From contig CP092877.1 in the NCBI GenBank assembly GCA_030710605.1, forward strand, positions 67,917,993 through 67,981,992: DNA of 64,000 nt, written 5' to 3'. Each line of letters opens with the position of its first letter. Position 1 is the stretch's first letter. Shown piece by piece: positions 17,018 through 47,715 of the stretch. The notes under the pieces were generated by a model. That model was not told the origin of the DNA. It saw only the letters and a program-made list of their open reading frames with translations, and made no database searches. This DNA comes from Cordylochernes scorpioides (lineage: Eukaryota > Arthropoda > Arachnida > Pseudoscorpiones > Chernetidae). The translations under genes were made by a program, and so were the position numbers.

Positions 17018-17340
17018 AAGGTAATAAGACCAAATCCAAATAAGTAGGGTGTTGTGTTTTGGATTTGGTCTTATTACCTGGTTGTGTTTATAATCCAAAT
17101 TGTGCCTTATCATTCCCAGTCTAATGTTTCTTCTTTCCCACACACATAACAATCAATAATATAAAATAAACAATTATAGAATAAAACAAGGTAATAAGAC
17201 CAAATCCAAATAAATAAATAGTGTGTGACGTTTCGGTAACAGCGTTGTTACCGAAACATCACACACCATTTATTTATTTGGATTTGGTCTTATTACCTTG
17301 TTTTATAATCTATAATCCAAATTGTGCCATTATCAATTAT
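17018..17340. repeat. Two FB-A palindromes in series
   Basis: 17018-17117 is a shortened copy. 17185-17340 is nearly complete, with arms CAAGGTAATAAGACCAAATC and complement and the hairpin GGTAACAGCGTTGTTACC at its centre. The CTGANGA part is missing from both. Confidence 0.75.
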
Positions 17341-17571
17341 AGAATAAATAAATAAAAAATAATTTATTGATGACTATTATAACAATCATAATATTTATAA
17401 CCTAAAATATCAATAAAGGAAAATATTACGCAAAATTTATATATAGAAATCATAAAATTTCCAAGTTGTCAATTTTCTCAAAATAAGTTTCCAAAATAAT
17501 CATTTACCAGTCATTTAAACAACTTCCTAGAAATGGTCCAGTTGTTTCTTTCTTTTCCACACACATAACAA

Positions 17572-18786
17572 TCTACTTTTATAATTGCCTTATTCTGTCT
17601 GTCTGTAAGTCTGAAGCTCACGGATAGAATGCGCGCCCATTGGCTGCCAGGGAACACGTGTCCTCCCTGCCCCCCTCTAGACAACCCTGTTATCAGCAGT
17701 GTGTTACATCCACCTGTCTATAGCGGCCACTCTAGACAACCCTGTTATCAGCAGTGTGATACATACACCTGTCTATAGCGGCCATTCTAGACAACCCTGT
17801 TATCAGCAGTGTGTTACATCCACCTGTCTATACAGGTCACCCTGTCTATAGCGGCCACTCTAGACACCCCTGTTATCAGCTGTGTGATAAATCCACCTGT
17901 CTATACAGACCACCCTGTATATAGCGGCCATTCTAGATAACCCTGTTATCAGCTGTGTGATACATACACTTGCCTATACAGACCACCCTGTATATAGCGG
18001 CCATTCTAGACAACCCTGTTATCAGTTGTGCGATACATCCACCTGTCTTTACAGACCACCCTGTCTATAGCGGCCACTCTAGACAACCCTGTTATCAGCA
18101 GTGTGATACATACACCTGTCTATAGCGGCCATTCTAGACAACCCTGTTATCAGCAGTGTGTTACATCCACCTGTCTATACAGGTCACCCTGTCTATAGCG
18201 GCCACTCTAGACACCCCTGTTATCAGCTGTGTGATACATCCACCTGTCTATACAGACCACCCTGTATATAGCGGCCATTCTAGATAACCCTGTTATCAGC
18301 TGTGTGATACATACACTTGCCTATACAGACCACCCTGTATATAGCGGCCATTCTAGACAACCCTGTTATCAGTTGTGCGATACATCCACCTGTCTTTACA
18401 GACCACCCTGTCTATAGCGGCCACTCTAGACAACCCTGTTATCAGCTGTGTGATACATCCACCTGTCTATACAGACCACCCTGTCTATAGCGGTCACTCT
18501 AGGCAACCCTGTTATCATCAGTGTGTTACAATCACCTGTCTATACAGACCACCCTGTCTATAGCGGTCACTTCAGGCAACCCTGTTATCAGCAGTGTGAT
18601 ACATACACCTGTCTATACAGACCACCCTGTCTATAGCGGCCACCCTAGACAACCCTGTTATCGGCTGTGTGATACATACACCTGTCTATACAGACCACCC
18701 TGTCTATAGCGACCACCCAAGACAACGTGTTTAAAATATATTCGCACTCGGGTAAACCCCGGGCGTTGCCCGGGCCATTCGTCTAG
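17572..18786 (+). mobile_element. Non-autonomous Helitron carrying a minisatellite
   Basis: Starts TCTACTTT after an A and ends CTAG before a T, the A|T insertion rule of Helitrons. A hairpin CCCCGGGCGTTGCCCGGG sits 10 to 12 bp before the terminal CTAG, the classic 3' stem-loop. Between the ends lies the tandem array 17693-18730. No Rep/helicase is present. The other allele is at 22759-23845. Confidence 0.85.
17693..18730. repeat. Minisatellite inside Helitron
   Basis: Units of 73 bp, with shorter 55-bp variants lacking 18 bp, repeat the words ACCCTGTTATCAGC, ACACCTGTCTATA and CTATAGCGGCCA. Open frames through it are a by-product of the repeat. The array is shorter in the other allele. Confidence 0.9.
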
Positions 18787-18810
18787 TCAAGAATAAACAA
18801 TTAAGGAATA

Positions 18811-18995
18811 ATAAAGAGTCAGTGGACGAGTGGGTAACACCCTCGATTCCTGACAGCCATGAACCAGGATTGAATCTCGCGTTAACCTTTTGTTTAATAT
18901 GTGAATAACCTTCACATATTATTCACTGTTTCAACTATCATAAGTAAGGTTGCTCTTGTTGAGCGGTACCTAATAAAGTGATTTTGGAACAAGAA
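18811..18995 (+). mobile_element. SINE-B, tRNA-related SINE
   Basis: 185 bp flanked by an exact 15-bp duplication AACAATTAAGGAATA (18796-18810 and 18996-19010). The first 70 bp resemble a tRNA (GTGGACGAGTGGGTAACACC, then GGATTGAATCTCG as B box). No long A tail. The allelic copy is at 23870-24054. Confidence 0.75.
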
Positions 18996-19023
18996 AACAA
19001 TTAAGGAATAGATTAAAAAAGAA

Positions 19024-19029
19024 TTTATT
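19024..19029 (-). terminator. Poly(A) signal of the LRR gene
   Basis: AATAAA on the minus strand, 167 bp after the stop of the PPP1R42-like gene. The same signal is at 24083-24088 in the other allele. Confidence 0.6.
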
Positions 19030-19195
19030 GATGGCTATTAAAAAATAACAATCCTTAATTTATAACCTAAAATATCATGCAAAATCTATATATATAACCA
19101 TAAAATTTTTAGATCATCAATTTTTTTTTTAAATAAGTTTCCAAACCATTCATTCACCAGTCATTTCAACAGAATAGGTTGAGCAATGAGGAGAT

Positions 19196-22100
19196 TTAGA
19201 GTTCCTCAAGCAGTTGGTTTAGTTCCTGGTCACTTTCTCCTCCTCCATCTTGGAGATCCTGCTGCGGAGATGGGAAGATGTGCTTGGACTGTGTTTTCCA
19301 ACGGGAGATGAAGTCCTTGGTGACAGGGCTCACAGCCTTGCCATCTATCTCCGCTGTCACCATACATTCCATGGTTAGTCAGCTGCCATGTCATTGGCAT
19401 TGGAGGCAATGAAGCTGCTAATGCGCTAGCGAAAAAAGGCACAAAAGAACCCTTGCCACAGAAAAATAAACTTACTTTTAAAGAAATAGAAACAGTAGCC
19501 AAAACAAAAATAAACAAGAACTGGAGGATCCCACCTAAGCACAGTTGGTACAGTGAAGTGAACCCAGGAGGAGCTCTGAACATCAGAAATAGACAGCATC
19601 AAACAACACTAACAAGATTTAAAACAGGCCATCTCAAGCCATTGAAGATAGAAAAAAATAATAAAATCTACCCCACTTGCCCAAAATTAAGCTTGGTACC
19701 TGCAGCTCCAGAACATACTTTGGCTTGCATTAGATAAACTAAACTGGACCTTTGGGAGAGGCCGCTGCTTATCATAAAACGGTTTGAGGAGCATGAACTC
19801 ATGGAATTTGTGTAATCTTTACACAAGGGGATAAGAAACAACAACAACACACTCAGGCATCAGGACTGTTGTTGTTTCTTATCCCCCTGTGCAAAGATTA
19901 CATGAGTTCATGCTCTTCAAGCTGTTTGATGATAAGCATCTGCCTCTCCCAAAGGTTCATTTAACCTAAATCAAGACAGACAAAAACTATAAGCTGTTTA
20001 AATATGCTGCTGGTAAAGATTGATTGGTTTGATAAACTAATAAATTGTGTCAGATGTGGAGCTTGGACAATAATGATCAAAGAACTGGAATAGAAAAGGA
20101 GCTTTTTTGAAGTCGTGTGCTATAATTTTCAATATAAAATGGACAGATAGGGTGACAAAAAAAAGTTTGGAGAAGATTTAATTGAGCGAATAACCTTCAA
20201 ATGAAGTAATCATTAAAAGGAAATGGAAGTTAGCAGTACATGTACACTGACAACCATCTATTGACCATTCTGGTGGGATACACCTTGAAGAATGAAGGGA
20301 GAGGTAGACAAAGATAGAATTGATTTAGTAATCTATTAAAAGTTATGACGAGGTGAATTGGTTAGAACAGGGTGATATGGGGTTCCATGATGACTGACAA
20401 TCCTGTATCAGAGATGGCTATACTACCTGATGACGATAAAGGTAGTTGCGCTAGTGAAAAAAGGCACAAAAGAACCCTTATATATAATAAACTTACTTTT
20501 AAAGAAATAGAAACAGTAGCCAAAACAAAAATAAACAAAAACTGGGCGATCCCACCTAAGCACAGTTGGTACAGTGGAGTGAACCCAGGAGGAGCTCTGA
20601 ACATCAGAAATAGACAGCACCAAACAACACTAACAAGATATAGAACAGGCCATCTCAAGCCATTGAAGATAGAAAATAATAACAAAATCTACCCCACTTG
20701 CCCAAATTGTAGCTTGACACCTGCAGCTCCAGAACACATTTTGGCTTGCATTAGATGCATTAAACAGGACCTTTGGGAGAGGCCACTGCTTATCATAAAT
20801 CAGCTCAAGGAGCATGAACTCATGAAATTTGTGTAATCTTTACACAAGGGAATAAGAAACAACAACAGAGATTGCTATACTATCTGATGATGTTAAAGGT
20901 AGTTGTTCATCATACAAGTTTCTCACAGAACTACCATTATCTGATATGATTGATGTGAACTCACTGATGTTGTGGAGATTGGCAATGATAGTTTCCCGGT
21001 ATCTGTTGGCAGAGGAGCACAGAGGGTTGCCAGACACTTGCAGGTGGGTGAGTCGTGGAAGGCGGTGTAGATGGCGTAGCAGGGTGTCTACATCATTCAG
21101 CCCACAGCTCCGGACCTGCAGGATCTCCAGTCCTGTCAGGTCCTGGAGGGCAGCAGTAGACACCATCAGGTTGTGGGACAGGTCCAACTCCTGAAGGTTC
21201 TGTTACACACACTCTACATTAATTCTACCACACACCATGCTCAGTAGATTACAACAAGTAGGTTACTTGCACACTCTGATGGTGTTGGACTTCTGCAAGA
21301 ATGGGGGGGAAAGGACATTGAAACAAACCTTTCTTCAGAAAAAAAAGTGCCCAATGCAGGATCCAATCCCCAGTTGTATCTGTCTATAATGTGTACCCTC
21401 CTCCTCCAATAATCTACCTGTCTATAAACAAAAGGTAACAAGACCAAATTATTGAAATGTTTGTGACGTTTTGGTAACAGCATGATTACCCTCATCAGAC
21501 AAAAGTATAGACTGAATGACTTTAGTTTCACTTTATTACTCCTTCAGTAATGATAAGCCACAATTTAGATTATAGATTAGAACTACAAGATAATAACACC
21601 AAATCTAAATAAATAAATAGTGTGTGACATTTCAGTTTTGTCTGATGATGGTAACAATAGTTACCGAAATGTCACACACAATTTATTTAGAATGGGTCTT
21701 ATTTTCTTGTAGCTACTCATAAAGTACTTTTGTCTGACGATGGTAACAAGGCTGTTACCGAAATGTCACACTCTATTAATTTATTTGAAAAGGTCTTATT
21801 TTCTTGTAGCTACTCATTCAGTACTTTTGTCTGATGATGTTAACAATGCTGTTATTGAAATCTCATTCCAATAATTAGGTCTTGCTCCTTTGTATTTCTT
21901 ATCTATAATCCAAATTGTACTGTACCTCCTTGTATCTAGTAGTGACCACTCACCCTAAGATGTTGGAAGGATCCAAGCACCAGAGAGAACTTCCCACAAG
22001 GTCCCAACATCTGGTTCTCCATGAACAGTTCCTCCAGTCGTTCTGGCAGGGCAGTACCATCCACAACTGCAATCCTGTTACGGCTCAGATACCTACATTC

Positions 22101-22311
22101 ACAACTTAGAATACTGAGACTGCATACAGTAGCGTTGCACTTACAGCTTGCGCAGGTTGATCAGAGACTGTATGTTCTCTATCATCTGGATGTTATTCTT
22201 CTGTAAGTAGAGGGCCGTCAGATTGCGCAGGCCGCTCAGGTTCTCCATCCTCTTGATCTGGTTGTCGTACAGGTAGAGAGTGATGAGCTTGGGACATTGT
22301 TCCAGGTTCTC
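19196..22311 (-). CDS. PPP1R42-like leucine-rich repeat protein, last four exons
   Basis: Exons in transcript order: 22145-22311, 21954-22092, 20965-21199, 19196-19353 (stop at 19196-19198). All borders are AG/GT and the junction phases agree. LRR units seen: LITLYLYDNQIKRMENL, LTALYLQKNNIQMIENI, YLSRNRIAVVDG, DLSHNLMVSTAAL. An LRR cap follows with GNPLC and YRETIIANL. After the last junction comes DGKAV and KDFISRWK, which lines up with DGKEI and the WK segment after the LRR cap of PPP1R42 (LRRC67), a protein phosphatase 1 regulator linked to centrosomes, microtubules and sperm. The tail is acidic and ends LLEEL. Upstream exons are missing at the 22411 gap. A LINE fragment ends about 20 bp from the last acceptor, which has no clear pyrimidine tract. 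Other SDS22-like LRR proteins remain possible. Confidence 0.75.
19374..19850 (+). mobile_element. LINE 3' end with RNase H fragment
   Basis: Encodes the end of an RNase H domain (GIGGNEAANALAKKGTKE), a basic linker, a Cys/His cluster (C-x2-C then H-x4-C in related copies) and a final ELMEFV stop. The tail is AAGAAACAACAACAACA. RNase H in the ORF points to the I/Jockey-type superfamily. This copy is 5' truncated and has a frameshift near 19690-19745. It sits in the last intron of the LRR gene, antisense to it. Confidence 0.75.
19863..19965 (-). mobile_element. LINE 3' tail, opposite strand
   Basis: TTGTTGTTTCTTATCCCC followed by the complement of the LINE stop region. It faces the tail of the neighbour at 19374-19850 head-on. 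Confidence 0.65.
20451..20866 (+). mobile_element. LINE 3' end with long target duplication
   Basis: Same LINE as at 19374, with CPNCSLTPAAPEHILAC (Cys/His cluster) and the CAA tail. About 37 bp ending GGTAGTTG flank it on both sides (about 20413-20450 and 20867-20905) with a few mismatches. The allelic copy is at 25489-25905. Confidence 0.75.
21430..21935. repeat. Cluster of FB-A halves
   Basis: Three partial FB-A units: GTGACGTTTTGGTAACAGC at about 21465, a full small palindrome at about 21590-21720, and GATGATGTTAACAATGC near 21836. They lie between two LRR-gene exons. The region 21240-21420 also holds a weak SINE-A remnant. Confidence 0.6.
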
Positions 22312-22410
22312 CTAGAGAGCAGCGTCATAGGGACACATTTATAGAATCCATTTAGAACTCAAATATGAACCAAGAAGTAAAAACAGCATCGACTAATGCA
22401 CAGAAGCCTC

Positions 22411-22510
22411 NNNNNNNNNNNNNNNNNNNNNNNNNNNNNNNNNNNNNNNNNNNNNNNNNNNNNNNNNNNNNNNNNNNNNNNNNNNNNNNNNNNNNNNNNN
22501 NNNNNNNNNN
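22411..22510. other. Assembly gap (100 N)
   Basis: Exactly 100 N, a default scaffold gap size. The sequence before it (ends GAAGCCTC) continues after the second gap at 35069 (ACTATACCAACCTCC). In the block between the gaps the same two words are joined without a gap at 29280-29300. Confidence 0.95.
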
Positions 22511-22758
22511 TGTGTCATATCAATTATAGAATAAATAAATAAAAAATAATTTATTGATGACTATTATAACAATCATAATATTTATAACCTAAAATATCAA
22601 TAAAGGAAAATATTACACAAAATTTATATATAGAAATCATAAAATTTCCAAGTTGTCAATTTTCTCAAAATAAGTTTCCAAAATAATCATTTACCAGTCA
22701 TTTAAACAACTTCCTAGAAATGGTCCAGTTGTTTCTTTCTTTTCCACACACATAACAA

Positions 22759-23845
22759 TCTACTTTTATAATTGCCTTATTCTGTCTGTCTGTAAGTCTG
22801 AAGCTCACGGATAGAATGCGCGCCCATTGGCTGCCAGGGAACACGTGTCCTCCCTGCCCCCCTCTAGACAACCCTGTTATCAGCAGTGTGATACATACAC
22901 CTGTCTATAGCGGCCATTCTAGATAACCCTGTTATCAGCAGTGTGTTACATCCACCTGTCTATACAGGTCACCCTGTCTATAGCGGCCACTCTAGACACC
23001 CCTGTTATCAGCTGTGTGATAAATCCACCTGTCTATACAGACCACCCTGTATATAGCGGCCATTCTAGATAACCCTGTTATCAGCTGTGTGATACATACA
23101 CTTGCCTATACAGACCACCCTGTATATAGCGGCCATTCTAGACAACCCTGTTATCAGTTGTGCGATACATCCACCTGTCTTTACAGACCACCCTGTCTAT
23201 AGCGGCCACTCTAGACAACCCTGTTATCAGCAGTGTGTTACATCCACCTGTCTATAGCGGCCACTCTAGACACCCCTGTTATCAGCTGTGTGATACATCC
23301 ACCTGTCTATACAGACCACCCTGTATATAGCGGCCATTCTAGATAACCCTGTTATCAGCTGTGTGATACATACACTTGCCTATACAGACCACCCTGTATA
23401 TAGCGGCCATTCTAGACAACCCTGTTATCAGTTGTGCGATACATCCACCTGTCTTTACAGACCACCCTGTCTATAGCGGCCACTCTAGACAACCCTGTTA
23501 TCAGCTGTGTGATACATCCACCTGTCTATACAGACCACCCTGTCTATAGCGGTCACTCTAGGCAACCCTGTTATCATCAGTGTGTTACAATCACCTGTCT
23601 ATACAGACCACCCTGTCTATAGCGGTCACTTCAGGCAACCCTGTTATCAGCAGTGTGATACATACACCTGTCTATACAGACCACCCTGTCTATAGCGGCC
23701 ACCCTAGACAACCCTGTTATCGGCTGTGTGATACATACACCTGTCTATACAGACCACCCTGTCTATAGCGACCACCCAAGACAACGTGTTTAAAATATAT
23801 TCGCACTCGGGTAAACCCCGGGCGTTGCCCGGGCCATTCGTCTAG
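22759..23845 (+). mobile_element. Helitron with minisatellite (second allele)
   Basis: Same ends as 17572-18786 (TC...CTAG with the CCGGGCGTTGCCCGG hairpin). It is 1087 bp rather than 1215 bp because the array has fewer units. Confidence 0.85.
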
Positions 23846-23869
23846 TCAAGAATAAACAATTAAGGAATA

Positions 23870-24054
23870 ATAAAGAGTCAGTGGATGAGTGGGTAACACC
23901 CTCGATTCCCGACAGCCATGAACCAGGATTGAATCCCGCGTTAGCCTTTTGTTTAATATGTGAATAACCTTCACATATTATTCATTGTTTCAACTATCAT
24001 AAGTAAGGTTGCTCTTGTTGAGCGGTACCTAATAAAGTGATTTTGGAACAAGAA
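23870..24054 (+). mobile_element. SINE-B (second allele)
   Basis: Allelic to 18811-18995, with the same 15-bp flanking duplication and a few substitutions. Confidence 0.7.
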
Positions 24055-24254
24055 AACAATTAAGGAATAGATTAAAAAAGAATTTATTGATGGCTATTAA
24101 AAAATAACAATCCTTAATTTATAACCTAAAATATCATGCAAAATCTATATATATAACCATAAAATTTTTAGATCATCAATTTTTTTTTAAAATAAGTTTC
24201 CAAACCATTCATTCACCAGTCATTTCAATAGAATAGGTTGAGCAATGAGGAGAT

Positions 24255-27200
24255 TTAGAGTTCCTCGAGCAGTTGGTTTAGTTCCTGGTCACTTTCTCCT
24301 CCTCCATCTTGGAGATCCTGCTGCAGAGATGGGAAGATGTGCTTGGACTGTGTTTTCCAACGGGAGATGAAGTCCTTGGTGACAGGGCTCACAGCCTTGC
24401 CATCTATCTCCGCTGTCACCATACATTCCATGGTTAGTCAGCTGCCATGTCATTGGCATTGGAGGCAATGAAGCTGCAAATGTGCTAGCGAAAAAAGACA
24501 CAAAAGAACCCTTGCCACAGAAAAATAAACTTACTTTTAAAGAAATAGAAACAGTAGCCAAAACAAAAATAAACAAGAACTGGAGGATCCCACCTAAGCA
24601 CAGTTGGTACAGTGGAAGTGAACCCAGGAGGAGCTCTGAACATCAGAAATAGACAGCATCAAATAACACTAACAAGATTTAGAACAGGCCATCTCAAGCC
24701 ATTGAAGATAGAAAATAATAACAAAATCTTCCCCACACTTGCCCAAAATGTAGCTTGGCACCTGCAGCTCCAGAACACATTTTGGCTTGCATTAGATGCA
24801 CTAAACTGGACCTTTGGGAGAGGCCGCTGCTTATCATAAAACAGCTCGAGGAGCATGAACTCATGGAATTTGTGTAATCTTTACACAAGGGGATAAGAAA
24901 CAACAACAACATACTCGGGCATCAGGACTGTTGTTGTTTCTTATCCCCCTGTGCAAAGATTACATGAGTTCATGCTCCTTGAGCTGTTTTATGATAAGTA
25001 TCCGCCTCTCCCAAAGTCAAGACAGACAAAAACTATAAGCTGTCTAGATGTGCTGCTGATAAAGATTGGTTGGTTTGATAAACTAATAAATTGTGTCTAG
25101 AATGTGTCAGCTTGGACAATAATGATCAAAGAACTGGAACAGAAAAGGAGCTTTTTTTGACATCATGTGCTAGAATTCTTAATATAAAATGGATAGACAG
25201 GGTGACAAAAAAATAAGTTTGGAGAAAATTTAATTGAGTGTATAACCTCCAAATGAAATAATCATCAAAAATAAATTAAAGTTAGCAGTACATGTACACT
25301 GAGGACCATCTATTGACCATACTGGTGGGATACACCTTGAAGAATGAAGGGAGAGGTAGACCAAGATAGAATTGATTTAGTAATCTATTAAAAGTTATGA
25401 CGAGGTGAATTGGTTAGAACAGGGTGATATGGGGTTCCATGATGACTGACAACCCCTGTACTACCTGATGACGATAAAGGTAATTGCGCTAGTGAAAAAA
25501 GACACAAAAGAACCATTATATATAATAAACTTACATTTAAAGAAATAGAAACAGTAGCCAAAACAAAAATAAACAAAAACTGGGGAATCCCACCTAAGCA
25601 CAGTTGGTACAGTGGAATGAACCCAGGAGGAGCTCTGAATCTCAGACAGCATCAAACAACACTAACAAGATTTAGAACAGGCCATCTCAAGCCATTGAAG
25701 ATAGAAAATAATAACAAAATCTACCCCACTTGCCCAAAATGTAGCTTGACACCTGCAGCTCCAGAACACATTTTGGCTTGCATTAGATGCACTAAACAGG
25801 ACCTTTGGGAGAGGCCGCTGCTTATCATAAAACAGCTTGAGGAGCATGAACTCATGGAAATCATGTAATCTTTACACAAGGGGATAAGAAACAACAGCAA
25901 CAGAGATTGCTATACTATCCGATGATGATAAAGGTAGTTGTTCATCATACAGGTTTCTCACAGAACTACCATTATCTGATATGATTGATGTGAACTCACT
26001 GATGCTGTGGAGATTGGCAATGATAGTTTCCCGGTATCTGTTGGCAGAGGAGCACAGAGGGTTGCCAGCCACTTGCAGGTGGGTGAGTCGTGGAAGGCGG
26101 TGTAGATGGCGTAGCAGGGTGTCTACATCATTCAGCCCACAGCTCCGGACCTGCAGGATCTCCAGTCCTGTCAGGTCCTGGAGGGCAGCAGTGGACACCA
26201 TCAGGTTGTGGGACAGGTCCAACTCCTGAAGGTTCTGTTACACACACTCTACATTAATTCTACAACACACACCATGCTCAGTAGATTACAACAAGTAGGT
26301 TACTTGCACACTCTGATGGTGTTGGACTTCTGCAAGAATGGGGGGTAAAGGCCATTGAAATAAACTTTTCTTCAGAAAAAAAAGTGCCCAATGCAGGATC
26401 CAATCCCCAGTTGTATCTGTAGATAATGTGTACCCTCCTCCTCCAATAATCTACCTGTCTATAAACAAAAGGTAACAAGACCAAATTATTGAAATGTTTG
26501 TGACGTTTTGGTAACAGCATGATTACCATCATCAGACAAAAGTATAGGGGGGTCGGTGGAAGGCTGGTTAAACCGTTTGGTTTTCGACCACTAGGACCCG
26601 GGTTCGAACCCGCATTGGACACTTTTTTCTGTTTAAAGAAAAAAAAATGCTCCAATGGCCCCCGATTCTTGCAAAAGTCCAACCCCACCAGCGAGTGCAA
26701 GTAACCAAACGGGGCTCTGGCATTAGTAAGTGCAAAGTCGAACTGCTTTTCACATGTGTAAACATGTGGTGCACTTACAGTAAAAGCAGTCGCTAACTAC
26801 CCACCATGATTATCATGGCCTGTACCACGTGTACTAGGGATAAGCAAAAAAAAACAATGGTTGCCTGTAAAGTCGGTTTTACGGGCGAAGATTTTACGTG
26901 ACAACGGTAGAATATTTATTGATATGAATATAATTAAATTGCACAATAGGAACAAGGAATTGAATGAAAATAAGAATTGCACAAATTTTAACTATAGAAA
27001 TATATTTTGTTTACTAAAACATTGTACATGTAAACTTAAACTTAACTAATTCCTATTTGAGTGATTTTGTTGAGGATAGGACGATGATAGGAGAATTATG
27101 AAATGAAAGGAAGTGTTTCTGCTGTAATGTGTCTTGCGAAAGTCAAGTCGATAGTTGTTCCTTTTAACGTAGTTGACTTAGAAACGTTTGATACGCAATC

Positions 27201-29189: not shown

Positions 29190-29324
29190 CTAGAGAGCAG
29201 CGTCATAGGGACACATTTATAGAATCCCTTTAGAACTCAAATATGAACCAAGAAGTAAAAACAGCATCGACTAATGTTCCGAAGCCTCGCTATACCAACC
29301 TCTTTTGTAACAGCAACTTGGTTT

Positions 29325-29475: not shown

Positions 29476-29547
29476 GACTTCTAAAGTACCAAGTGTTCAG
29501 TCCTAAATATTTTTAACCATGGTTGAACATTTCATCAACTTGGGTGT

Positions 29548-29955: not shown

Positions 29956-29966
29956 CCTCTGTAGTA

Positions 29967-35690: not shown

Positions 35691-36531
35691 TACCATTTTT
35701 ATTATTTAGCAGCTCTCCGGTAAGAGGATACCTCTTGCTAAAGGACACTTTGACTCTACAACTAGGTGTTGTCTTTTTCAGAGTTTGTTATACTGTATAG
35801 GGTTCAGATGTAATCAAGGCAGTAGTTAGTAAGCCAAAACTTTGCATCTCTCAGCCAACTAAACCTCCTCTTAGTACAGCTGCCTCACTGACAGAACTTA
35901 AACAATCTGTGGTATAACTACAAATATACAGTCGTAAATCTTACTATAACAGTTTCATTTGGAGCTGCAACTTGATTATAACATCACAATTCCAAGACTT
36001 AATTGTTTAACTGTAGTTATAGCCACAACATAAAAACTTGGTACCAAGTGATGCTGTTATAGAGCAATTGACTGTAGTTCACCTATTTGTTTGTGACAAT
36101 GGTTATAACATCACTTTTTTTTTAAATATACAAAGACAATTATTTTAATCATAGTTATAACAATACAAAATCTATCCTTAGTACCAGGCGTTATTGTTAT
36201 AGCAACAATTAACTATAGTTCACTTATTTGTTTCTCTGACAAATGGTTATAACATCACAATTCCAAGACTCAATTGTTTTAACCATAGTTATAAACAACA
36301 ACATAAAATCTTGCTACCAATTGTAGTTTCCTTGTTTATTTCTGAGATGAAAGCTGGTCTATAAGTAGAAAGCCTCACCTCTTGAACCAGGAATCTTCTG
36401 AATCATAGTCCAACATGTTATCCATTCCACTATGCCACCTATTTTCAACCACCATGACCAGGTGATCAAATCCTGCAACGGAAATGTTTCTGAAGAAAAA
36501 AAATCCTGTTTTAAATTGCTTATATAAAGTA

Positions 36532-37162
36532 CTAGACGAATGACCCGGGCAACGCCCGGGTTTACACGATTAAATGTATTATTCAAACACATAAAACATA
36601 GCAAATATAGCAAGAGCAGTTATTTTAAACGGCGAATTAGATCAGTTATAGCAAAAAATGAAATTATATATGTAAATATGTGAAATAGTTATAAATTAGA
36701 AAACCTGTAAATATAGTTAAGGGACTTGCATTGTAATTAAGAAAAAGCTTCTCATCTAGAACGCTCAGGCGACCTGCCGGCGGCGCGCGCGCCCGTTGGC
36801 TGCCGGCGAGCACGTGACTTCCCTGTGCGCGCGCATGGCGGGCGGTCGCGTGGAACAGCCCTCGCCGACAGCCATGCGCACGCACAGGGAAGTCACGTGC
36901 TCGCCGGCAGCCAACGGGCGCGCGCCGCCGGCAGGTCACCTGAGCGTTCTAGAGGGCGCTGCTCGTGAGCTAAGTAGAATAATTTGAATATATAGTTTTA
37001 ATAATTGATTTATATATTTTTTTAAATAGCCTATCGTCATCCCCGTTATTTTTTACCTATGTATGGAAATTTTGGTTTGAATTAGTGAACTACTGCGAAT
37101 TTGTATACCGGACATACAAACCAACAAACAAACATACAAACATTCATTTTTATATATATAGA
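36532..37162 (-). mobile_element. Non-autonomous Helitron with GC-rich palindrome
   Basis: Minus-strand element: 5' TCTATATATATAAAAATGAA at 37162, 3' hairpin and CTAG at 36535-36532, flanked by A and T as expected. Contains the palindrome at 36755-36960. The matching site in the other haplotype (about 31785) is empty. Confidence 0.85.
36755..36960. repeat. GC-rich inverted repeat inside Helitron
   Basis: Two arms of about 80 bp (from AGAACGCTCAGG to CGCGCATGG, and the complement ending TGAGCGTTCT) around about 30 bp. They are far richer in G+C than the AT-rich surroundings and contain many CpG. Confidence 0.85.
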
Positions 37163-37172
37163 TATTGTCGCT

Positions 37173-37278
37173 ACAAGAAAATAAGACCAAAAAAACTGAA
37201 AACATCACACACTATTATTTAGATTTGATCTTATTTTCTTGAAGTTATAATTTATAATCCAAATTGTGCCTTATCAGT
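37173..37278. repeat. FB-A palindrome, small
   Basis: CAAGAAAATAAGACC and TTGATCTTATTTTCTTG arms with a much reduced centre. Absent from the other haplotype at this point. Confidence 0.65.
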
Positions 37279-37488
37279 ATATTGTCACATAGAAAAATGG
37301 TGGAAGACGAAGTAAGGGTGATAAAACAATTTATTTTTATCATAACTATTAACAACTTATTTACATGAGTTAACAGAAAGGCAACGAGAGAAAGCTGCTT
37401 ATTAACACAATATGTAAATTGCAAGCCTGTTGTTTAATTTTAAGAACTCTTGAGACATAGCTCCTTCTCTATGGAAGCTGTGACTCAC

Positions 37489-37735
37489 AACTTCAAATTT
37501 TGTTGCTACCACAATATATTTTGGTCAAGGTTTCCCTTAGTGTCTTGAAAGTGGTCCGTAGTAGCTTTACATCCTTTCAAGAGAGACTTTATAGAGACGT
37601 CATCTTCTTGGAGGGAAGTCTTGAATTTGACATGGCGATGGAATCCTGAAGTCAGTCATTGAAAATGTAGGCCACAGCACTCAAGGTCTGCTCAGCAATC
37701 TTCAATTTGACTTCCCAAATCTACCCAGCATATCC
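37489..37735 (-). other. Conserved open segment, possible terminal exon (allele 1)
   Basis: Counterpart of 32229-32490. Here the first frame reads KLKIAEQTLSAVAYIFND before its stop, with two extra codons (TL) relative to the other allele. A minus-strand AATAAA near 37330 could end the transcript. Function unknown. Confidence 0.3.
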
Positions 37736-38261
37736 ACCAAAATGTCATGTGGAAAAAAGAGAGAAGACAATCCAAGAAAAATAAGGCAATTTTTTTTTTG
37801 ATCATAACAATTATCAACTTATTTACATATGAAAGAATGTTGAATAATTTTAAAATACACTCATGGACAAAACTTAAGGAAGTGGAAAGTCTTTGATGCC
37901 ACTGGTTGTCTATTTTTTTTTTTTTGTTATATGCAATGAGGTTCAATTCCGATTATATTTCAGGAATCTCTCTCACAAGGTACCAAAATTTAAATAAGTA
38001 CATTATAGGGTGACAGTAATAATTCTGGTTACCTTGTGAATGGTATAAAATGCACTCATGGTCAAAACTTGAGTCTTTGATGTCTCCAGTCGCTTATTAT
38101 TTTTTTTTTAAGAAGACAGAGGCAATTTTTTTCATGCTTGATTATATAGTGTGGCTTCAATAAAGGTCACTGTAATATCTTTCAGAGTTATTGGTCTGAA
38201 TCCAGATATACATGGTAAAAGGTGCAACTTCCTTAAGTTTTGTCCATGAGTATTCTTATAT

Positions 38262-38442
38262 TCACTGCTACTCTTTTTGTGTTGTTTTTCTTGCTTCCCT
38301 CTTTCTTGTTTTTTTTTTCTTTTTCTTCTGTCTATATTGTTATTTCCTTTGTCTCACTGCTTTGTTCTTATGCATACCTCTGGTGAATCCTGTATAGGGT
38401 CAGTCACCCTAAATAAAGGCTTTTTGTTGTTTGTTTTGTTGT
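38262..38442 (+). mobile_element. Retroposon 3' end with GTT-rich tail
   Basis: Flanked by an exact 16-bp duplication TATTCTTATATTCACT. Contains AATAAAGGCTTTTTGTTG. Absent from the other haplotype near 33000. Confidence 0.75.
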
Positions 38443-38574
38443 TGTATTCTTATATTCACTAATCACCTTAGTTGCTGCTGTATTATCAGAATGGATGAAG
38501 GAGAGAGAAATGCATTTCAACATTTTTAAAACATGAGATTTCAAACCTCTTGATTTGAGAACCATATTTAGGTA

Positions 38575-38750
38575 CAGTTAAACCTGTCTATAGCGCCCCT
38601 CTTGGGACTCACCAAAATAGGGTGCTATAGAGAGGGGGTGCAATAGACAGGTCACTTTTAATGTAAAATGTGTACATTTTAATGTTTAAAATTGGGCGCT
38701 ATAGAGAGGAAGGCGCTATTTAGAGGGGGCGCTATAGACAGGTTTAACTG
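38575..38750. mobile_element. TA-flanked MITE, CAGTTAAACCTG family
   Basis: Inverted ends CAGTTAAACCTGTCTATAGC and its complement, flanked by TA. The other haplotype (about 33124) has a single TA at this site. Its end resembles the Helitron minisatellite unit. Confidence 0.8.
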
Positions 38751-38812
38751 TATCTAACATTAGCAAAATAAACACTCCTTTCTTAATTGTACTTTTGCTT
38801 TTATAAAGTATA

Positions 38813-39397
38813 CTAGACGAATGGCCCGGGCAACGCCCGGGGTTTACCCGAGTGCGAATATATTCTAAAAACGTTGACTTGGGTGGTCGCTATTAACAGG
38901 GTGGTCTGTATAGACAGGTGGATGTATCACACAGCTGATAACAGGGTTGTCTAGAGTGGTCGCTATAGACAGGGTGGTCTGTATAGACAGGTTTATGAGA
39001 GAGGCACAAACTTACAGGTTGTTGACGCCGCAATTCCCAGAGAGAGTGTTTTTTGTTGCATCATGCTGTGACTCACACGACGACCCAAGGTCAACAGGGG
39101 TGGAGCAGCCAGCTTAAGCCTATCACCGTCTGGCGGCGCTGCTTGCGAGTTATATCTACAATTCTGCAAATAACTCTAAGGATATTCAAGATATTCAAGA
39201 AATTATTTTTCGAAAACCTTTCCGGGGATATACCTAATAATATCCCAGAATTTCATGGCGATTGGATGTATGGTTTTTGAATAACAGGGTTGTCTAGAGG
39301 GGGCAGGGAGGACACGTGTTCCCTTGCAGCCAATGAGCGCGCATTCTATCCGTGAGCTTCAGACAAACAGACAGAATAAGACAAATATATAAGTAGA
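38813..39397 (-). mobile_element. Helitron with few minisatellite units
   Basis: Minus-strand relative of 17572-18786: CTAG and CCCGGGCAACGCCCGGGG at the left, TCTACTTATATAT at the right, A and T flanks correct. It holds two or three units of the same minisatellite and a unique middle part (39000-39280). Confidence 0.8.
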
Positions 39398-39865
39398 TTA
39401 TAAAAACAAAAAGACAAATAAGAGAAAGGGTTGTCCTTTTTTTTTTAATTTTGCTAATGTTAAAACACTTCTTGCTTAGATATTCTTCTTTATTATCCCT
39501 AGTACACGTGGTACAGGACATGATAATCATGGTGGAGGGTAGTAGTAAGCTTTTTACTGTAAGTGCACCACATGTGGAAAGCAGATGTGAAAAATATTTA
39601 CATACTTTAGTAGATAAAATATATATAACTGTACATACATGACTACTTGAAATTGTATCCATTATTCCTGTAGAAGGGCAGCTTGCGCCCGAAAGCTCGA
39701 ATTGATTTTTCAAATAAAGAAACTTATCCTTTTTGAATCTATTCGTTATTATACTTTAGTAGAAGAATTATATATCTTAAGCATTGTTACCGAAACATCG
39801 CACACTATTTATTTGGTTCATTGTGTTGGTGTATTGATGAGAAAGATTTAAATTGAATTGGAATA

Positions 39866-40044
39866 CAGTAGAACCTCCCTTTAGCGAACACCCCTGCTAG
39901 AGGACAACTCTCCACAAAGGTCAGTTTTCATTTGAAAAATTAAAATTTTTACAATTTTGCAACTCTCCGGTAAAAGAACAAATCTTCCTAAAAGACACTG
40001 GCTCTATAAAATTAGGTGTTGTCCTTTATAGAGAGGTTCTACTG
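39866..40044. mobile_element. Pogo/Tigger-like MITE
   Basis: TA-flanked, ends CAGTAGAACCTCCC and GAGAGGTTCTACTG. Confidence 0.7.
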
Positions 40045-40067
40045 TATATCAGAATAAAATTTGGGGG

Positions 40068-40375
40068 GGTTCGGTGGAAGGCTGGTTAAACCGTTTGGTT
40101 TTCAACCGCTACGACCCGGGTTCGATTCCCGCATTGGACACTTTTTTCTGTTTAAAAAAAAAAATGCTCCAATGGCCCCCGATTCTTGCAAAAGTCCAAC
40201 CCCACCAGCGAGTGCAAGTAACCAAATGGGGCTCTGGCACATTTGTAAGTGCAAAGTCGAACTGTTTTCACATGTGTAGACATGTGGTGCGCTTACAGTA
40301 AAAGCAGTCGCTAACTACCCACCATGATTATCATGGCCTGTACCAGGTGTACTAGGGATAAGCAAAAAAAAAAAT
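40068..40375 (+). mobile_element. SINE-A, well preserved
   Basis: Head with A-box-like GGCTGGTTAAACCG and B box GGGTTCGATTCCC, a body with AAAGTCCAACCCCACC, a 3' end CTAGGGATAAGC and an A run. About 305 bp. AAAATTTGG occurs on both flanks. Not a tRNA gene, because no acceptor stem closes after the B box. Confidence 0.8.
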
Positions 40376-40487
40376 TTGGCAGTTTTCTATCAAAGTACAA
40401 CATTGATATTGTAAAACATTTTTACAACTTCTAATATCAAATTTATCTTTTTTAAACAATATAATGATACGTAGTGATTATTTTATG

Positions 40488-40680
40488 CAAGTTAATAACA
40501 CCATTTCCAAATAAATAAATAGTGTGTGACATTTCCATAACAGCATTGTTTCAGTACTTTTGTCTGATGGTAACAACACTTTTACCGAAATGTCGCACAC
40601 TATTTATTTACTTGAATTTGGTGTTATTAAGTTATGTTTCTAATCTATAATTCAAAAATTGTAGCTCATCGATTATTTTG
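40488..40680. repeat. FB-A element
   Basis: TAATAACACCATTTCC left arm, a broken centre, GTCTGATGGTAAC, and a right arm GTGTTATTAAG. Confidence 0.6.
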
Positions 40681-40780
40681 TTATTTAATCCTTAAATATA
40701 TATGTATAGTAAAAGAGAAAGTTTTTATATGGTTATTAAACATGTAAAAATTAATCCTTGCCAAAAAAAAAACAAAAATA

Positions 40781-40955
40781 CAGAACCTCCCTGTAAAGTA
40801 CAACACCTAATTGCAGAGCCAAAATGTCCTTTAGGGAGAGGTGTTCTCTAACCGGAGAGTTTCAAAAAAGTAAAAACAATAATTTTGCAAATGAAAACTG
40901 TCCTTTATATAGAGGTGTCCTTTAGCGTGAGTGTCCTCTCATGGAGGCTCTAATG
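40781..40955. mobile_element. Pogo/Tigger-like MITE, degraded
   Basis: Family match throughout (CCTCCCTGTAAAG, GAGTGTCCTCTCATGGAG) with eroded ends. Confidence 0.55.
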
Positions 40956-41009
40956 TACTAAAAAAAAAAGATATGAGGCTGGCTGGCCGGCATTCATATT
41001 TCTTCAAAT

Positions 41010-41757
41010 AAAAGACACTTCGGCCAGTAAATCTTTTTAACACAAAGCAATAACGCGCCATCTATACATATAAAATAAAAGGATTTTAAAGCGCGAATGT
41101 TTCTTTTATACATAATACAAACTTCTACTGTCCTTACTGCGATGAAAAAATATATTGGGAGGGCTTGGTTCATCAGTGGTGAACCCTTCCAGCGGTTTCG
41201 CCAATTTAATCCACCAGACCGCTTCTCAGAGCTCTAATGCTGTATTGGATCATTCTGCTTTTATATGCTACACTGAAGGATGGAATCTTTGAAATGGTTT
41301 TCAAGTAAACTATGGACATAAGCTTATAGGACAGTAGAATTACATTCAAATATTTGCTTCGAGCAATGCTCTTCAGCAAACTATAAAGACAAGGCCAGTT
41401 AGGAATAAATTAACACAAAGCAATAACGCGCCATCTATACATATAAAATAAAAGGATTTAAAAGCGCGAATGTTTCTTTTATACATAAAACGAACTTCTA
41501 CTGTCCTTACTGCGATGAAAAAATTTTTTCATCGCAGTAAGGACAGTAGAAGTTCATTTTATGTATAAAAGAAACATTCGTGCTTTTAAATCCTTTTTTT
41601 TTTATAAGTAAATCTTTTTATTGTCTCGATGTTTCGACAAAAATCTTTTGTCCTCGTCAGGAGCGAACAAAAATTAAAACATGACAAAAGATTTTTGTTG
41701 AAACATCGAGACAATAAAAAGATTTACTGGCCGAAGTGTCTTTTATTTGAAGAAATA
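41010..41757. repeat. Nested foldback cluster (FB-B)
   Basis: Outer inverted arms TCTTCAAATAAAAGACACTT (41010) and complement (ending 41757). Inside are a direct repeat of about 130 bp (CAATAACGCGCCATCTATAC at about 41048 and 41413), a long palindrome 41413-41596 centred on TGAAAAAATTTTTTCA, and a second hairpin 41609-41724 with ATGTTTCGACAAAAATC arms. No coding capacity recognised. Confidence 0.75.
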
Positions 41758-41803
41758 AAAAAAAAAGATTATCAAAATTTTGAGAGAAATCATTTGTCTA
41801 GAT

Positions 41804-41994
41804 CAGGGATTGGCAACCTGTGGCTCACAATCCACATGCAGTTCTTTGGATGTGAAGCTGTGAGTAGTATTCACATAAATGCGAGTACTATTTATTGTTC
41901 ACCAAAAAAAAAATGTGGCTCTTTAAAAACTTTGAAATTTTGTAAATATCAATTTTTTTAACTCTTCTGACTCAAAAGGTTGTGTCGATCCCTG
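41804..41994. mobile_element. hAT MITE
   Basis: 191 bp. Ends CAGGGATTGGCAACC and GGTTGTGTCGATCCCTG, flanked by the exact 8-bp duplication GTCTAGAT (41796-41803, 41995-42002). Its ends differ from those of the hAT at 11618, so another transposase must have moved it. Confidence 0.85.
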
Positions 41995-42509
41995 GTCTAG
42001 ATAGCATTTTTATTTTATTAAAGTTTAAGATATCACAGATTGAATAATAGAACCATAGGGCACCTCTCCCGTCAAAATAAATGCCAAAACGTGATGCCAT
42101 CTATATAGCGTCTACGGGAGAGGCGCCCTATGCTTCTATGAATCAATTTCCTCCTGGCAAATTTTCCATATAGATTGAATAATGTGAAAGAAAAGCTATT
42201 TTACAAATGTGAAAAAAAAAGTGGTAAATTAATAACTAGTGTTGTCACAATTAGCAATACAAACATGCATTATAAAAACAAAAGGACAAATAAGAAAGGA
42301 TGTCTTTGTTTTATTTTGCTAATGTTAAAACACTTCTTGCTCACATCTTTATTATTATCCCTAGTACATGTGGTTCAGGCCATGTACAGATGCCATTGTG
42401 GGACAGACTTCCATACCTGCTGAATTTGATCAGCCAAATCTCAGCAATAGCAGTCAATTTGGTACTATGTGTATTCATCATCATGTGGACAAAGTCTGAC
42501 TGTCATGTT

Positions 42510-42800
42510 ATTATTATCCCTAGTACATTGGTTACAGGTCATGATAATCATGGTGGGTAGAAGTTAGCGATTGCTTTTATTGTAAGTGCACCACATGTCT
42601 ACACATGTGAAAAGCAGTTTGAATTTTACACTTACAAACTTTCCATAGCTCCGTTTGGTTACTTGCACTTGTTGGTGGGGTTGGACTTTTGCATGAATCG
42701 ATGGCTATTGGAACATTTTTTTTTTTAGAAAAAAGTATCCAATACGGGATTCGATCCCGGTTGAAAACCAACGGTTTAGACCACCCTTCCACAGACCCCT
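42510..42800 (-). mobile_element. SINE-A copy
   Basis: Reverse-oriented, with CTAGTACATTGG and a tRNA-like head ending near 42800. A 50-bp remnant of another copy precedes it at 42355-42405. Confidence 0.65.
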
Positions 42801-43036
42801 TGTCTGTCATGTGGTGCCCCCTGGATAGTCAACCAACAACAGTGGTTCTTTTTACCCATCATGGAGGCTTATGGACTAAGGTTCAGTTTCCATGACCTTG
42901 TATAACTATACAATGGAATAATTAAAAAATCATCTTTATTGTAAAGAACACTCCTCACCTTCTCAATGCTTTGAAGAGGCTAGAGTAATTATAACAAACA
43001 ACAACAAAAAGCTTTATTAAAACCTTTTAGTCTTAT

Positions 43037-43248
43037 ATGGATTATAGATACAAGAAAATAAGACCTGATCCAAATAATTTAATAATATGTGACGTTTCGG
43101 TAACAACATTGTTACCATCATTCTTTTGTCTGATGAAAAATTTTTTGTCTGATGATGGTAACAATGCTGTTACCGAAACATCACACCCTATTAATTTATT
43201 TGGATTTGGTCTTATTTTCTTGTATCTATAATCCTAATTGTGCTTTAT
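43037..43248. repeat. FB-A element, second arm type
   Basis: Arms ACAAGAAAATAAGACCTGAT and complement; centre with GTCTGATGATGGTAAC and GTTACCGAAACATC. The other haplotype contig ends within the matching element at 34968. Confidence 0.8.
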
Positions 43249-43313
43249 CATCTTATACAGATTCTTAAGAGTATAGAAATGTAGGGTACATGCAGGAATA
43301 CCAGTAATAATAC

Positions 43314-43590
43314 CAAACACAAGGTAATAAGACCAAATCCAAATAATTTAATAGTGTGTGACGTTTCAGTAACAGCGTTGTTACCTTCTTCAGGCAAAAG
43401 TACTGAATGAGAAATTTTACCACAGCATGGTTTAGTTACTGTTATCAAGTGTAAACAATGCTGTGGTAAAATTTCTCATTCAGTACTTTTGTCTGAAGAT
43501 GGTAACAACGCTGTTACCGAAACGTCACACACTATTTATTTGGTCTTATTACCTTGTGTTTATAATCTATAATCCAAATTGTGCATTATC
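43314..43590. repeat. FB-A element, complete
   Basis: Both arms, an inner palindrome (ACTGAATGAGAAATTTTACC and complement) and a complete right-half core: CTGAAGA at 43493, hairpin GGTAACAACGCTGTTACC, GAAACGTC ending 43526. Confidence 0.85.
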
Positions 43591-44054
43591 AGTAATAATA
43601 CCAGTAATAAGCACAATGTTATCTTTATTATTTTTAAAGCACATAAGAGAAGCTAGCAAATATTACCATTAAAACAAACCACTTTGACTCATACCCTGAC
43701 ATCTGTGTTCTTTTGACCTACTTTGTAATTTGGAAGGTCAATTCCACACCAACCTTAAACACCTACAAACTGATCTGTCACCCCATGTGTTGTCTTCAAA
43801 TTAAGATAACTACAAGGTAATAACACCAAATCAAAATATGTTCTATTTGGTATTATCTTGTATAGTTGTTTGTTTATCCCTAGTACCCATGGAGGGGAGA
43901 AATGCATTTTAAATAACAAAAAAGCAAGGATTCATAATCAAGATCTCAAGAATATGAAGACCTAAAGGCATCTGTCTTGATGCAATAACTATAATTGTTA
44001 ATGAACAAGTGTATATATAAACCCTATCCCCAAATTATTGTCAATATGATGGTT

Positions 44055-44365
44055 ACTTTTTTTTTTGCTTATCCCTAGTACACATGGTACAGGCCATGAT
44101 AATCATGGTAGGTAGAGGTAGGAGAATGCTTTTACTGTAAGTGCACTAAATGTCTACACATGTGAAAAGCAGTTCGACTTTTCATTTACAAATGTGCCCA
44201 GTTTGGTTACTTGCAATCGCTGGTGGGGTTGGATTTTTGCAAGAATCAGGAGCCATTGGAGCATTTTTTTTAATCAGAAAAAAGTGCCCAAAGCAGGAAT
44301 GGAACCCGGGTCGTAGCGGTTGAAAACCAATGGTTTAGACCATCCTTCCACCAACCCCCTGTATA
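44055..44365 (-). mobile_element. SINE-A copy
   Basis: Reverse-oriented SINE-A. Its right part is repeated after the third gap (45896-46025). Confidence 0.7.
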
Positions 44366-44369
44366 GTTC

Positions 44370-45580
44370 TAATCTATGATAAAGCACAATTTGGATTATA
44401 GATTATAATAAATGAAAATAAGACCTAATCTAAATAATTTATTAGTGTGTAATATTTCGGCAACAACATCATCAGACAAAAGAATAAAATCAATTAAAAT
44501 TGATGAGGCACAATTTGGATTGTAGATTATAAACACAAGGTAATAAGACCAAATCCAAATAAATAAATAGTGTGTGACGTTTCGGTAACAGCGTAACAGG
44601 TCATTCAGTACTTTTGTCTGAAGATGGTAACAACGCTGTTACCGAAACGTCACATACTAATAAATTATTTGGATTAGGTCTTATTTTCTTTTATTAGTTC
44701 TAATCTATATAATAATCCAAATTGTGCTTTTTCATTAAAATAATTATACAAAAGTCACAGATGCCTTAAAGGAAACAAAGAAACACAAGTTATGACCAAA
44801 TCCAAATAAATAAATAGTGTGTGACATTTTGGTAACAATTGGTTACCGAAACATCACACACTATTTATTTATTTGGATTTGGTCTTATTACCTTCTGTTT
44901 ATATTCTATAATCTAAATTGGGCCTTAAAGGAAACAAGGAAGGTACTATCACCAGCTTACGAAGTTTGAATGAGGCAGTGTAATAAGGCTATGAGAAGAT
45001 GATAAGGCACAATTTAGATTATAAGCACAAGGTAATTATACCAAATAAATAAATAGTGTGTGATGTTTCGGTAACAATGCTGTTACCAAAATATCACACT
45101 ATTTATTTATTTGGTCTAATTACCTTGTGTTTATACCAAAACTTTGTATTTCATCAGTGTTGATAAATATGTGATCGCAATCATTCACCAAAGTCATGCA
45201 GGAAGGTTAAAATGGCATGAGAGAACACATGATTAGAGAGAGGAAAAAATTAAGAAATCAATCATATTATATTATAGATAGATTTACACTATTTTTCAAC
45301 TTTTTGTCATAGTACCAATTGTCCAATATTTAATGAGGGCTTTAGCCACATCTCTTAGTGAATCTTTGGATGTAGAGGTATGATAATCAATTAGTGCTGC
45401 CATCTTGGTCAATCATCATGGAACATCATTTCACTCTAACAAGAAAATAAGACCTAATCCAAATAAATTAATAGTGTGTGACCTTTCGGTAACAACGCTG
45501 TTACTGAAACGTCACACACTATTAATTTATTTGGATTAGGTCTTATTTTCTTGTAGCTATAATCCAAATTGTGCTTTTTC
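44370..45580. repeat. Cluster of FB-A elements
   Basis: At least four units: 44370-44740 (one inside another; core CTGAAGA 44618 to GTC 44651), 44778-44925, 45000-45140 and 45437-45575. The first and last have the TTATTTTCTT arm; the middle two have the TTATTACCTT arm. Confidence 0.75.
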
Positions 45581-45795
45581 TTTCATTTCACCCTGTTCTG
45601 TGCAATTCTTTTTTTAGGGGTACCTAACCTAAACTAATTTTAAACGATCTGAACTTTACCAAACATTGATAATGGTCTAACAGTAATGAATATCTCACCA
45701 TGAAAACAAATTTTAAGTAAAAAAAAATATTTACTTATTTTAAAGTGTTAATAATATTGGGAAATTTAAAAAAATAATAATAATATGGGAAAAAC

Positions 45796-45895
45796 NNNNN
45801 NNNNNNNNNNNNNNNNNNNNNNNNNNNNNNNNNNNNNNNNNNNNNNNNNNNNNNNNNNNNNNNNNNNNNNNNNNNNNNNNNNNNNNNNNNNNNNN
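45796..45895. other. Assembly gap (100 N)
   Basis: Exactly 100 N, between two contig ends that share about 1.6 kb. Confidence 0.95.
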
Positions 45896-47715
45896 ACTTT
45901 TGCAAGAATCGGAGCCATTGGAGCATTTTTTAATCAGAAAAAAGTGCCCAAAGCAGGAATGGAACCCGGGTCATAGCTGTTGAAAACCAATGGTTTAGAC
46001 CATCCTTCCACCAACCCCCTGTATAGTTCTAATCTATGATAAAGCACAATTTGGATTATAGATTATAATAAAAGAAAATAAGACCTAATCTAAATAATTT
46101 ATTAGTGTGTAACATTTCGGCAACAACATCATCAGACAAAAGAATAAAATCAATTAATTTTATTCTTTTGTTTTTTATAGAATAACTCTTATCCTGATCA
46201 AATTAGTATGAAATAAAGAAGAGGAGCTTCTTTATACACATTTATTCTCGCTAGCTTTCGAACCTACATGGTTCTTCATCTTTTGTCTGATGATGGTGAC
46301 AATGTTGTTTCTGAAACGTCACATACTAATAAATTATTTGGATTAGGTCTTATTTTCTTTTATTAGTTCTAATCTATATAATCCAAATTGTGCTTAATCA
46401 TTAAAATAATTATACAAAAGTCACAGATGCCTTAAAGGAAACAAAGAAACACAAGTTATGACCAAATCCAAATAAATAAATAGTGTGTGACATTTTGGTA
46501 ACAATTGGTTACCGAAACATCACACACTATTTATTTATTTGGATTTGGCCATATTACCTTCTGCTTATATTCTATAATCCAAATTGGGCCTTAAAGGAAA
46601 CAAGGAAGGTACTATCACCAGCTTACGAAGTTTGAATGAGGCGGTGTAATAAGGCTATGAGAAGATGATAAGGCACAATTTAGATTATAAACACAAGGTA
46701 ATTATACCAAATAAATAAATAGTGTGTGATGTTTCGGTAACAATGCTGTTACCAAAATATCACACTATTTATTTATTTGGTCTAATTATCTTGTGTTTAT
46801 ACCCAAAACTTTGTATTTCATCAGTGTTGATAAATATGTGATCGCAATCATTCACCAAAGTCATGCAGGAAGGTTAAAATTGGCATGAGAGAACACACGA
46901 TTAGAGAGAGGAAAAAATTAAGAAATCAATCATATTATATTATAGATAGTATCAAGTCCCTAATGAATAAACTCTTTAGATATATTATTATGCATTAGCG
47001 CACATTATAAAAATTCCAAACTATTATAGACGCGTATGATTTTTTAAAAATTAAATAATTTCTACTGCCCTTACTGCAATGGAAAAATTAATAGGAGGGC
47101 CTGGCTTAATTTTTTTCATTACAATAAGGGCAGTAGAAATGGTTTCTTTTTTAAAAGAATCATACACGTCTATAATAGTTTGGAGTAACAAAATGTCTAA
47201 GAGTAAAGGAGAGAAATGTTTTACACAGTTTTTCAACTTTTTGTTATTGTACCAATTGAGAGCTTTATCCACCTCTCTTAGTGAATCTTTGGATGTAGAG
47301 GTATGATAATTAATTAGTGCCGCCATCTTGGTCAATCATCATGGAACATCATTTCACTCTAACATGAAAATAAGACCAAATAAATTAATAGTGTGTGACC
47401 TTTCTGTAACAGCGCTGTTACTGAAACGTCACACACTATTAATTTATTTGGATTAGGTCTTATTTTCTTGTAGCTATAATCCAAATTGTGCTTTATCTTT
47501 CATTTCACCCTGTTCTGTGCAATTCTTTTTTTTTAGGGGTACCTAACCTAAACTAATTTTAAACGATCTGAACTTTACCAAACATTGATAATGGTCTAAC
47601 AGTAATTAATGAATATCTCACCATGAAAACAAATTTTAAGTAAAAAAAATATTTATTTATTTTAAAGTGTTAATAATATTGGGAAATTTAAAAAAATAAT
47701 AATAATAAGGGAAAA
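45896..47715. other. Repeat of 44239-45795 (probable unmerged contig overlap)
   Basis: Collinear with 44239-45795, including the same SINE-A end, FB-A units and the GATGTAGAGGTATGATAAT segment. It differs by a different insert near 46160-46265 and an FB-B palindrome (about 46935-47260). Confidence 0.75.
46985..47205. repeat. FB-B palindrome
   Basis: Arms CCAAACTATTATAGACG and complement, inner TTTCTACTGCCCTTACTG and complement, loop with GGAGGGCCTGGCT. Absent from the copy left of the gap. Confidence 0.8.

Follow-up and report, generated by a model that had tools for sequence, protein, structure and literature searches.

When blocks of DNA recur side by side in an assembled chromosome, are they real duplications or several versions of one stretch that the assembly failed to merge? 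We asked this of a 64,000-nucleotide stretch of the pseudoscorpion Cordylochernes scorpioides (the window; C15:67917993-67981992 of a 2.62-Gb assembly in 24 contigs), in which a preliminary description had read three 100-N gaps as seams between uncollapsed alleles laid head to tail. The view was widened by 100 kb on either side to 264 kb, with coordinates to the right continuing the numbering of the window. We hold with high confidence, judging from the assembled letters, that the repeated blocks represent a false duplication made by the assembly, in which haplotype versions of one stretch would have been kept as separate contigs and placed serially with default gaps.

The 264 kb contain six runs of 100 N and one of 69 N. 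Three of these runs fall inside the window, each exactly 100 bases long as previously described. The scaffold order is A, B, C, D, E (inverted), F and G, and the contigs and gaps that the argument needs are listed below, the last three in window-extended coordinates.

Up to 22410, forward strand: end of contig A, of which 17323-22410 matches B by self-alignment; first partner of block B
22411-22510, no strand: gap A/B, 100 N
22511-34968, forward strand: contig B, a redundant version that spans the A-C junction at 29288/29289
26548-28468, no strand: B-only stretch without a partner in A, an insertion in B or a loss in A
34969-35068, no strand: gap B/C, 100 N
35069-45795, forward strand: contig C, which abuts the end of A; its right end abuts contig E, which lies beyond the window, in reverse complement
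44235-45795, forward strand: end of C, overlapping the start of D and part of F
45796-45895, no strand: gap C/D, 100 N
45896-64000 in the window and on to window-extended 73217, forward strand: contig D, with copies in E (inverted) and F
45898-47716, forward strand: start of D, matching the end of C
73318-103884: contig E, an inverted copy of D
103985-136290: contig F, a direct copy of D
136391-158839: contig G, after which the remainder of the sequence follows

Thus the remaining part of the window, 45896-64000 within contig D, has two more copies, both outside the window.

To compare gaps with gap-free sequence we counted blocks of at least 400 bp and at least 88% identity shared between the 30 kb on either side of a point. 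Copies lie across six of the six 100-N gaps in the 264 kb, covering 4871, 800, 1559, 21647, 20198 and 838 bases. Among 14 gap-free split points, all taken from contig A alone, 11 have no match and three share one 441-bp match. No copy of this kind lies across the 69-N run at L028:4840-4908, the sole odd-length N run in the 264 kb, which is possibly a gap of different origin. A gap between paired copies on one scaffold, one of the marks of false heterotype duplication, was therefore found at all six gaps here and at one further locus on C7 described below. One alternative is that these are real segmental duplications adjacent in the chromosome, one of them inverted, with the gaps only marking repeats that broke the assembly, as real near-identical repeats do. 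Such duplications should be joined without a gap at a visible boundary, but within the 264 kb the only gap-free joins of copies that turned up were tandem arrays and short repeats, any boundary further out being hidden by contig ends.

Self-alignment, which the preliminary description had called for, confirmed the blocks. Contig A matches the left half of B (22511-29288) in the same orientation at 92-94% counting indels, with 17323-18653 paired to 22511-23785, 17786-21510 to 22863-26547 (93.7%) and 21728-22410 to 28603-29288 (93.8%), while approximately 1.9 kb of B (26548-28468) is unmatched in A. For the right half of B (29290-34968), agreement with C (35070 on) comes in patches of 70-92%. 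The largest of these is 32199-32998 with 37440-38256 (91.2%), and there are many smaller blocks of 70-90%, several of them inside a local inverted-repeat element. The earlier claim that B matches A and then C in order and orientation is thus borne out for A, with the match starting at 17323, and is real but patchier than implied for C; the proposed end of the C match at about 43165 is approximate only, as the right end of B has partners at both 42994-43174 and 43378-43590. The two copies of a 1.6-kb segment reported on either side of the third gap are present as 44235-45794 and 45898-47716 at 91-92%, made up of 44235-45281 with 45898-46949 (90.6%) and 45283-45794 with 47220-47716 (91.9%), D carrying about 270 bp extra relative to the end of C. 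A tandem array of approximately 73-bp units occupies 17676-18726 in A and 22863-23785 in B, and the number of units differs between them. Within the B-only stretch there is a 301-amino-acid open frame (27096-28001) with no Pfam match, which may be a Helitron-type remnant.

In B, the last base of A (22410) and the first base of C (35069) have adjacent counterparts, 29288/29289, with zero bases lost or doubled, and the letters of B at this junction are GAAGCCTC-GCTATACC. This agrees with the earlier placing of the join within 29280-29300, although the words quoted for it were off by one base. The end of C and the start of reversed E are likewise neighbouring bases of F (108107/108108, window-extended), as are the end of reversed E and the start of G (133066/133067), again with none lost or doubled; at these second and third junctions D has a few extra bases. 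Between unrelated contig ends, overlap or missing sequence is normally expected. Because the joins lose or double no base, A, C, reversed E and G can be read as a single contig broken in three places, B, D and F lying between the pieces and E turned round, so that the placement is not simply head to tail as had been proposed.

Collinear chains to the path A-C-reversed E-G cover 64.8% of the length of B, 80.8% of D and 66.8% of F, whereas nine control pieces of contig A, each 27 kb long and chained on both strands, give 6.6-12.8% in their 18 chains. The weakest chain is that of B, which past the A/C junction is built on small blocks, one of them of 0.8 kb. Shared transposons as the source of the matches are ruled out by the control chains and the gap-free split points. 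The order at the first two gaps is a, a'c', c, which is not the product of tandem duplication, and a simple tandem duplication fits neither this block order nor the abutment. For segmental duplications in general, the nested order and the exact abutment of A, C, reversed E and G would need insertions precisely at contig ends; moreover, the flanks into which D and F continue resemble C and G, and no duplication boundary was seen short of the contig ends. We consider that explanation very improbable.

The arrangement would be accounted for if several divergent haplotype versions of a single chromosomal stretch had been retained as separate contigs and all joined into one chromosome scaffold by default gaps of 100 N. 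During scaffolding, presumably by Hi-C or a similar method, one original contig (A-C-reversed E-G) would have been split in three places, with E reversed and the alternatives B, D and F slotted between the pieces. The copies would then be alleles from pooled, polyploid or very heterozygous material, probably with no real paralogue among them. This is an ordinary artefact of an already described kind, false heterotype duplication.

The differences between the copies bear on a further possibility, homotype false duplication, in which one sequence is assembled repeatedly through read errors and gaps also separate the copies. By substitutions alone, A and B are 0.3% apart in the 332 bp left of the tandem array, 3.7% in the 2.7 kb to its right and 4.7% in the last 0.7 kb, while B and C differ by 4.6-8.0% and C and D by 3.0-3.9%. 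Most differences are substitutions and longer indels, 19 of 59 indels in seven compared segments being of 1 bp, and B has the 1.9-kb stretch unmatched in A. The indel pattern and the open frames in the copies are unlike raw-read error, and indel sizes and codon differences count against read-error copies; we regard the homotype explanation as extremely improbable.

The codon differences come from a leucine-rich-repeat (LRR) gene with one copy in A and one in B. The gene features of the window are as follows.

19199-22311, reverse strand: LRR gene, copy in A; coding stretches 22144-22311, 21939-22097, 20894-21202 and 19199-19378
24258-29189, reverse strand: the same LRR gene, copy in B; coding stretches 29022-29189, 28817-28975, 25929-26237 and 24258-24437
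48076-48276, reverse strand: SEM1/DSS1 coding stretch in D (Pfam PF05160, 72.3 bits against a cut-off of 32.2); two further copies, in E and F

LRR_4 scores above the Pfam cut-off in two of three scanned exons of the A copy. Over 272 codons the two copies show 5 synonymous and 4 nonsynonymous differences and no stop. One 103-amino-acid exon, searched across the 2.62 Gb, is present only in A and B, so no further copy was found elsewhere in the genome with that exon. This is consistent with the earlier proposal that two PPP1R42-like genes are one locus, PPP1R42 being the name given in the preliminary description, whereas Pfam gives only leucine-rich repeats. The SEM1/DSS1 copies in D, E and F have 0-1 differences over 67 codons, and partial SEM1/DSS1 matches were also found at two places on C24, 47 kb apart. 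Both the LRR and the SEM1 copies look as alleles would, judging by their sequences, but recent true copies could look alike, and open frames kept in all copies of the compared coding stretches would also suit real segmental duplications. Collinear copies with allele-like differences and intact frames are what false heterotype duplication gives and what was found, B against C being the weakest case.

How many versions are present is a separate question. D, reversed E and F were aligned in seven hand-picked segments, giving 16,397 columns after removal of gapped columns and those within 3 of a gap. Substitution differences are 3.4% for D-E, 3.5% for D-F and 2.9% for E-F, the last pair being closest at the left ends (0.9%). 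Private states number 322 in D, 223 in E and 232 in F, with 15 three-state columns. D, E and F are three near-equidistant versions, and F as a recombinant or switch-over of D and E only is ruled out by its 232 private sites. Uncollapsed alleles placed in series with default gaps are supported as an idea, but two alleles are too few here, since more than two distinct versions occupy the interval. The half read depth expected earlier need not hold over D, E and F because three versions are present.

As far as the letters go, the additional version could come from pooled DNA, from polyploidy or from one real extra copy, and three versions exceeding two alleles would also fit real segmental duplication. 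In a mixed case, most of the region would be serial haplotype contigs but one of D, E and F would be a real extra copy on one haplotype, so that a diploid yields three versions. The near-equidistance of the three would fit, yet D and F are both collinear into the same left and right flanks, like alleles, and we think this case unlikely. There is a somewhat greater, still small chance that a single animal does carry three divergent intact versions, being polyploid or polymorphic for a real duplication, part of the redundancy then being biology.

Several observations weigh against serial haplotype contigs as the explanation. Three versions exceed what one diploid animal can carry at a single locus. 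Substitution differences of 3-5% are high for alleles, although very polymorphic invertebrates reach 3-5% allelic substitution difference. Agreement between B and C is patchy, and 35% of B lies outside the chain. For a second predicted case, the partial SEM1 pair on C24, a DNA search with the surroundings of one copy did not list the other, the 40 scored places being filled by a high-copy element.

To gauge how widespread such copies are, we screened the entire assembly for four Pfam families (MCM, RNA polymerase largest-subunit domain 5, chaperonin and class-I tRNA synthetase). Loci were counted by hand, a multiple locus being one where stretches of the same model recur no more than 200 kb apart with near-equal scores. 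Of 30 loci, 19 are single, 10 double and 1 triple. Excluded from the count are an intronless RPB1 family and, on C15, two clusters of short matches to chaperonin (61.18/61.35/61.55 Mb and 69.47/69.50 Mb); the clusters would have contributed a further triple and a further double. Among the doubles there are three inverted pairs, namely C7 MCM, C2 chaperonin and C7 tRNA synthetase. The prediction of a gap between copies held at the one doubled locus fetched, the C7 MCM pair, where the 15.5 kb of C7:85711501-85727000 contain a single N run of exactly 100 bases, between the copies; the longest inverted blocks are 1076 bp at 92.8% and 993 bp at 91.2%. Recurrence of local extra copies at 11 of the 30 loci argues against real segmental duplication at the window. 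The triple is MCM on C3, unlinked to the window, and suits pooled or polyploid material better than the local duplication of the mixed case.

Ko et al. (2022, Genome Biology, PMC9516828) give as marks of false heterotype duplication a gap between the two copies, half depth on each, discordant reads and 1-copy k-mers. The mark observed at the present locus is the gap between pairs. In contrast to that description, there are up to three versions here, the apparent primary contig is itself cut, and one piece is inverted between alternatives. The AaegL5 mosquito assembly, built from approximately 80 pooled siblings, had undercollapsed heterozygosity before merging and misjoined contigs that were split (PMC6421076); its copies were merged before release, whereas here they persist in the chromosome sequence.

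At face value the region would give a duplicated LRR gene, a triplicated SEM1/DSS1 and an inversion of 30 kb. All three are unlikely to be real, and the seemingly additional gene copies very probably stem from an error of assembly, with no duplication in the chromosome behind them. Because 11 of 30 loci show local extra copies, gene counts, gene-family expansions, inversions and probably the 2.62-Gb size need correction, and the three versions mean that such correction must accommodate more than two haplotypes.

Some further features of the sequence are of separate interest. In contig C, 38800-39398 (600 bp) is 98.7% identical to a place approximately 119 kb leftward (L011:39-636) and is probably a recent mobile element, the identity being above that of the allele-like copies. 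A 298-amino-acid open frame at 15353-16249 carries a mariner-type transposase domain (Transposase_1, 69.2 bits), and contig G carries a copy of 15200-16491 with 94% identity (window-extended 140471-141798). Two long tandem arrays lie left of the window (L010:7347-9682 and L017:953-2572), with offsets near 67 and 75 bp. Elsewhere, the first 1 kb of L034 (C24:38121359 on) is an element of approximately 1 kb with at least 39 other copies at 99-100% on many chromosomes, suggesting a very recent spread.

The RPB1 family left out of the count includes L039 (C18:14129001-14136000), an uninterrupted 1751-amino-acid frame ending in YSPTSPS-type heptads. Its best PDB matches are RPB1 at 2160 bits, with Pol III at most 722, and in seven blocks it is 97.4-98.9% identical to an intron-bearing gene in L040 (C7:96730501-96736500) with the introns missing, so its sequence points to a processed copy of the gene for the largest subunit of RNA polymerase II. 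The whole RNA polymerase domain occurs at 28 places, 27 of them in open frames of 1543-1911 amino acids and one with an internal TAA. At least 23 further near-full-length RPB1 places have 94-98% identity (24 of 630 candidates scored) and also have upstream sequence in common; intronless full-length copies occur on C17, C18, C12, C6, C9 and C10 too. Some members may be false duplicates, but an apparently intact, amplified RPB1 retrogene family is worth separate study. RPB1-like exons above the Pfam cut-off lie at three distinct loci, L035 (C22:48.74 Mb), L036 (C1:215.54 Mb) and L040 (C7:96.73 Mb), and this gene, normally single, may thus have several paralogues with introns.

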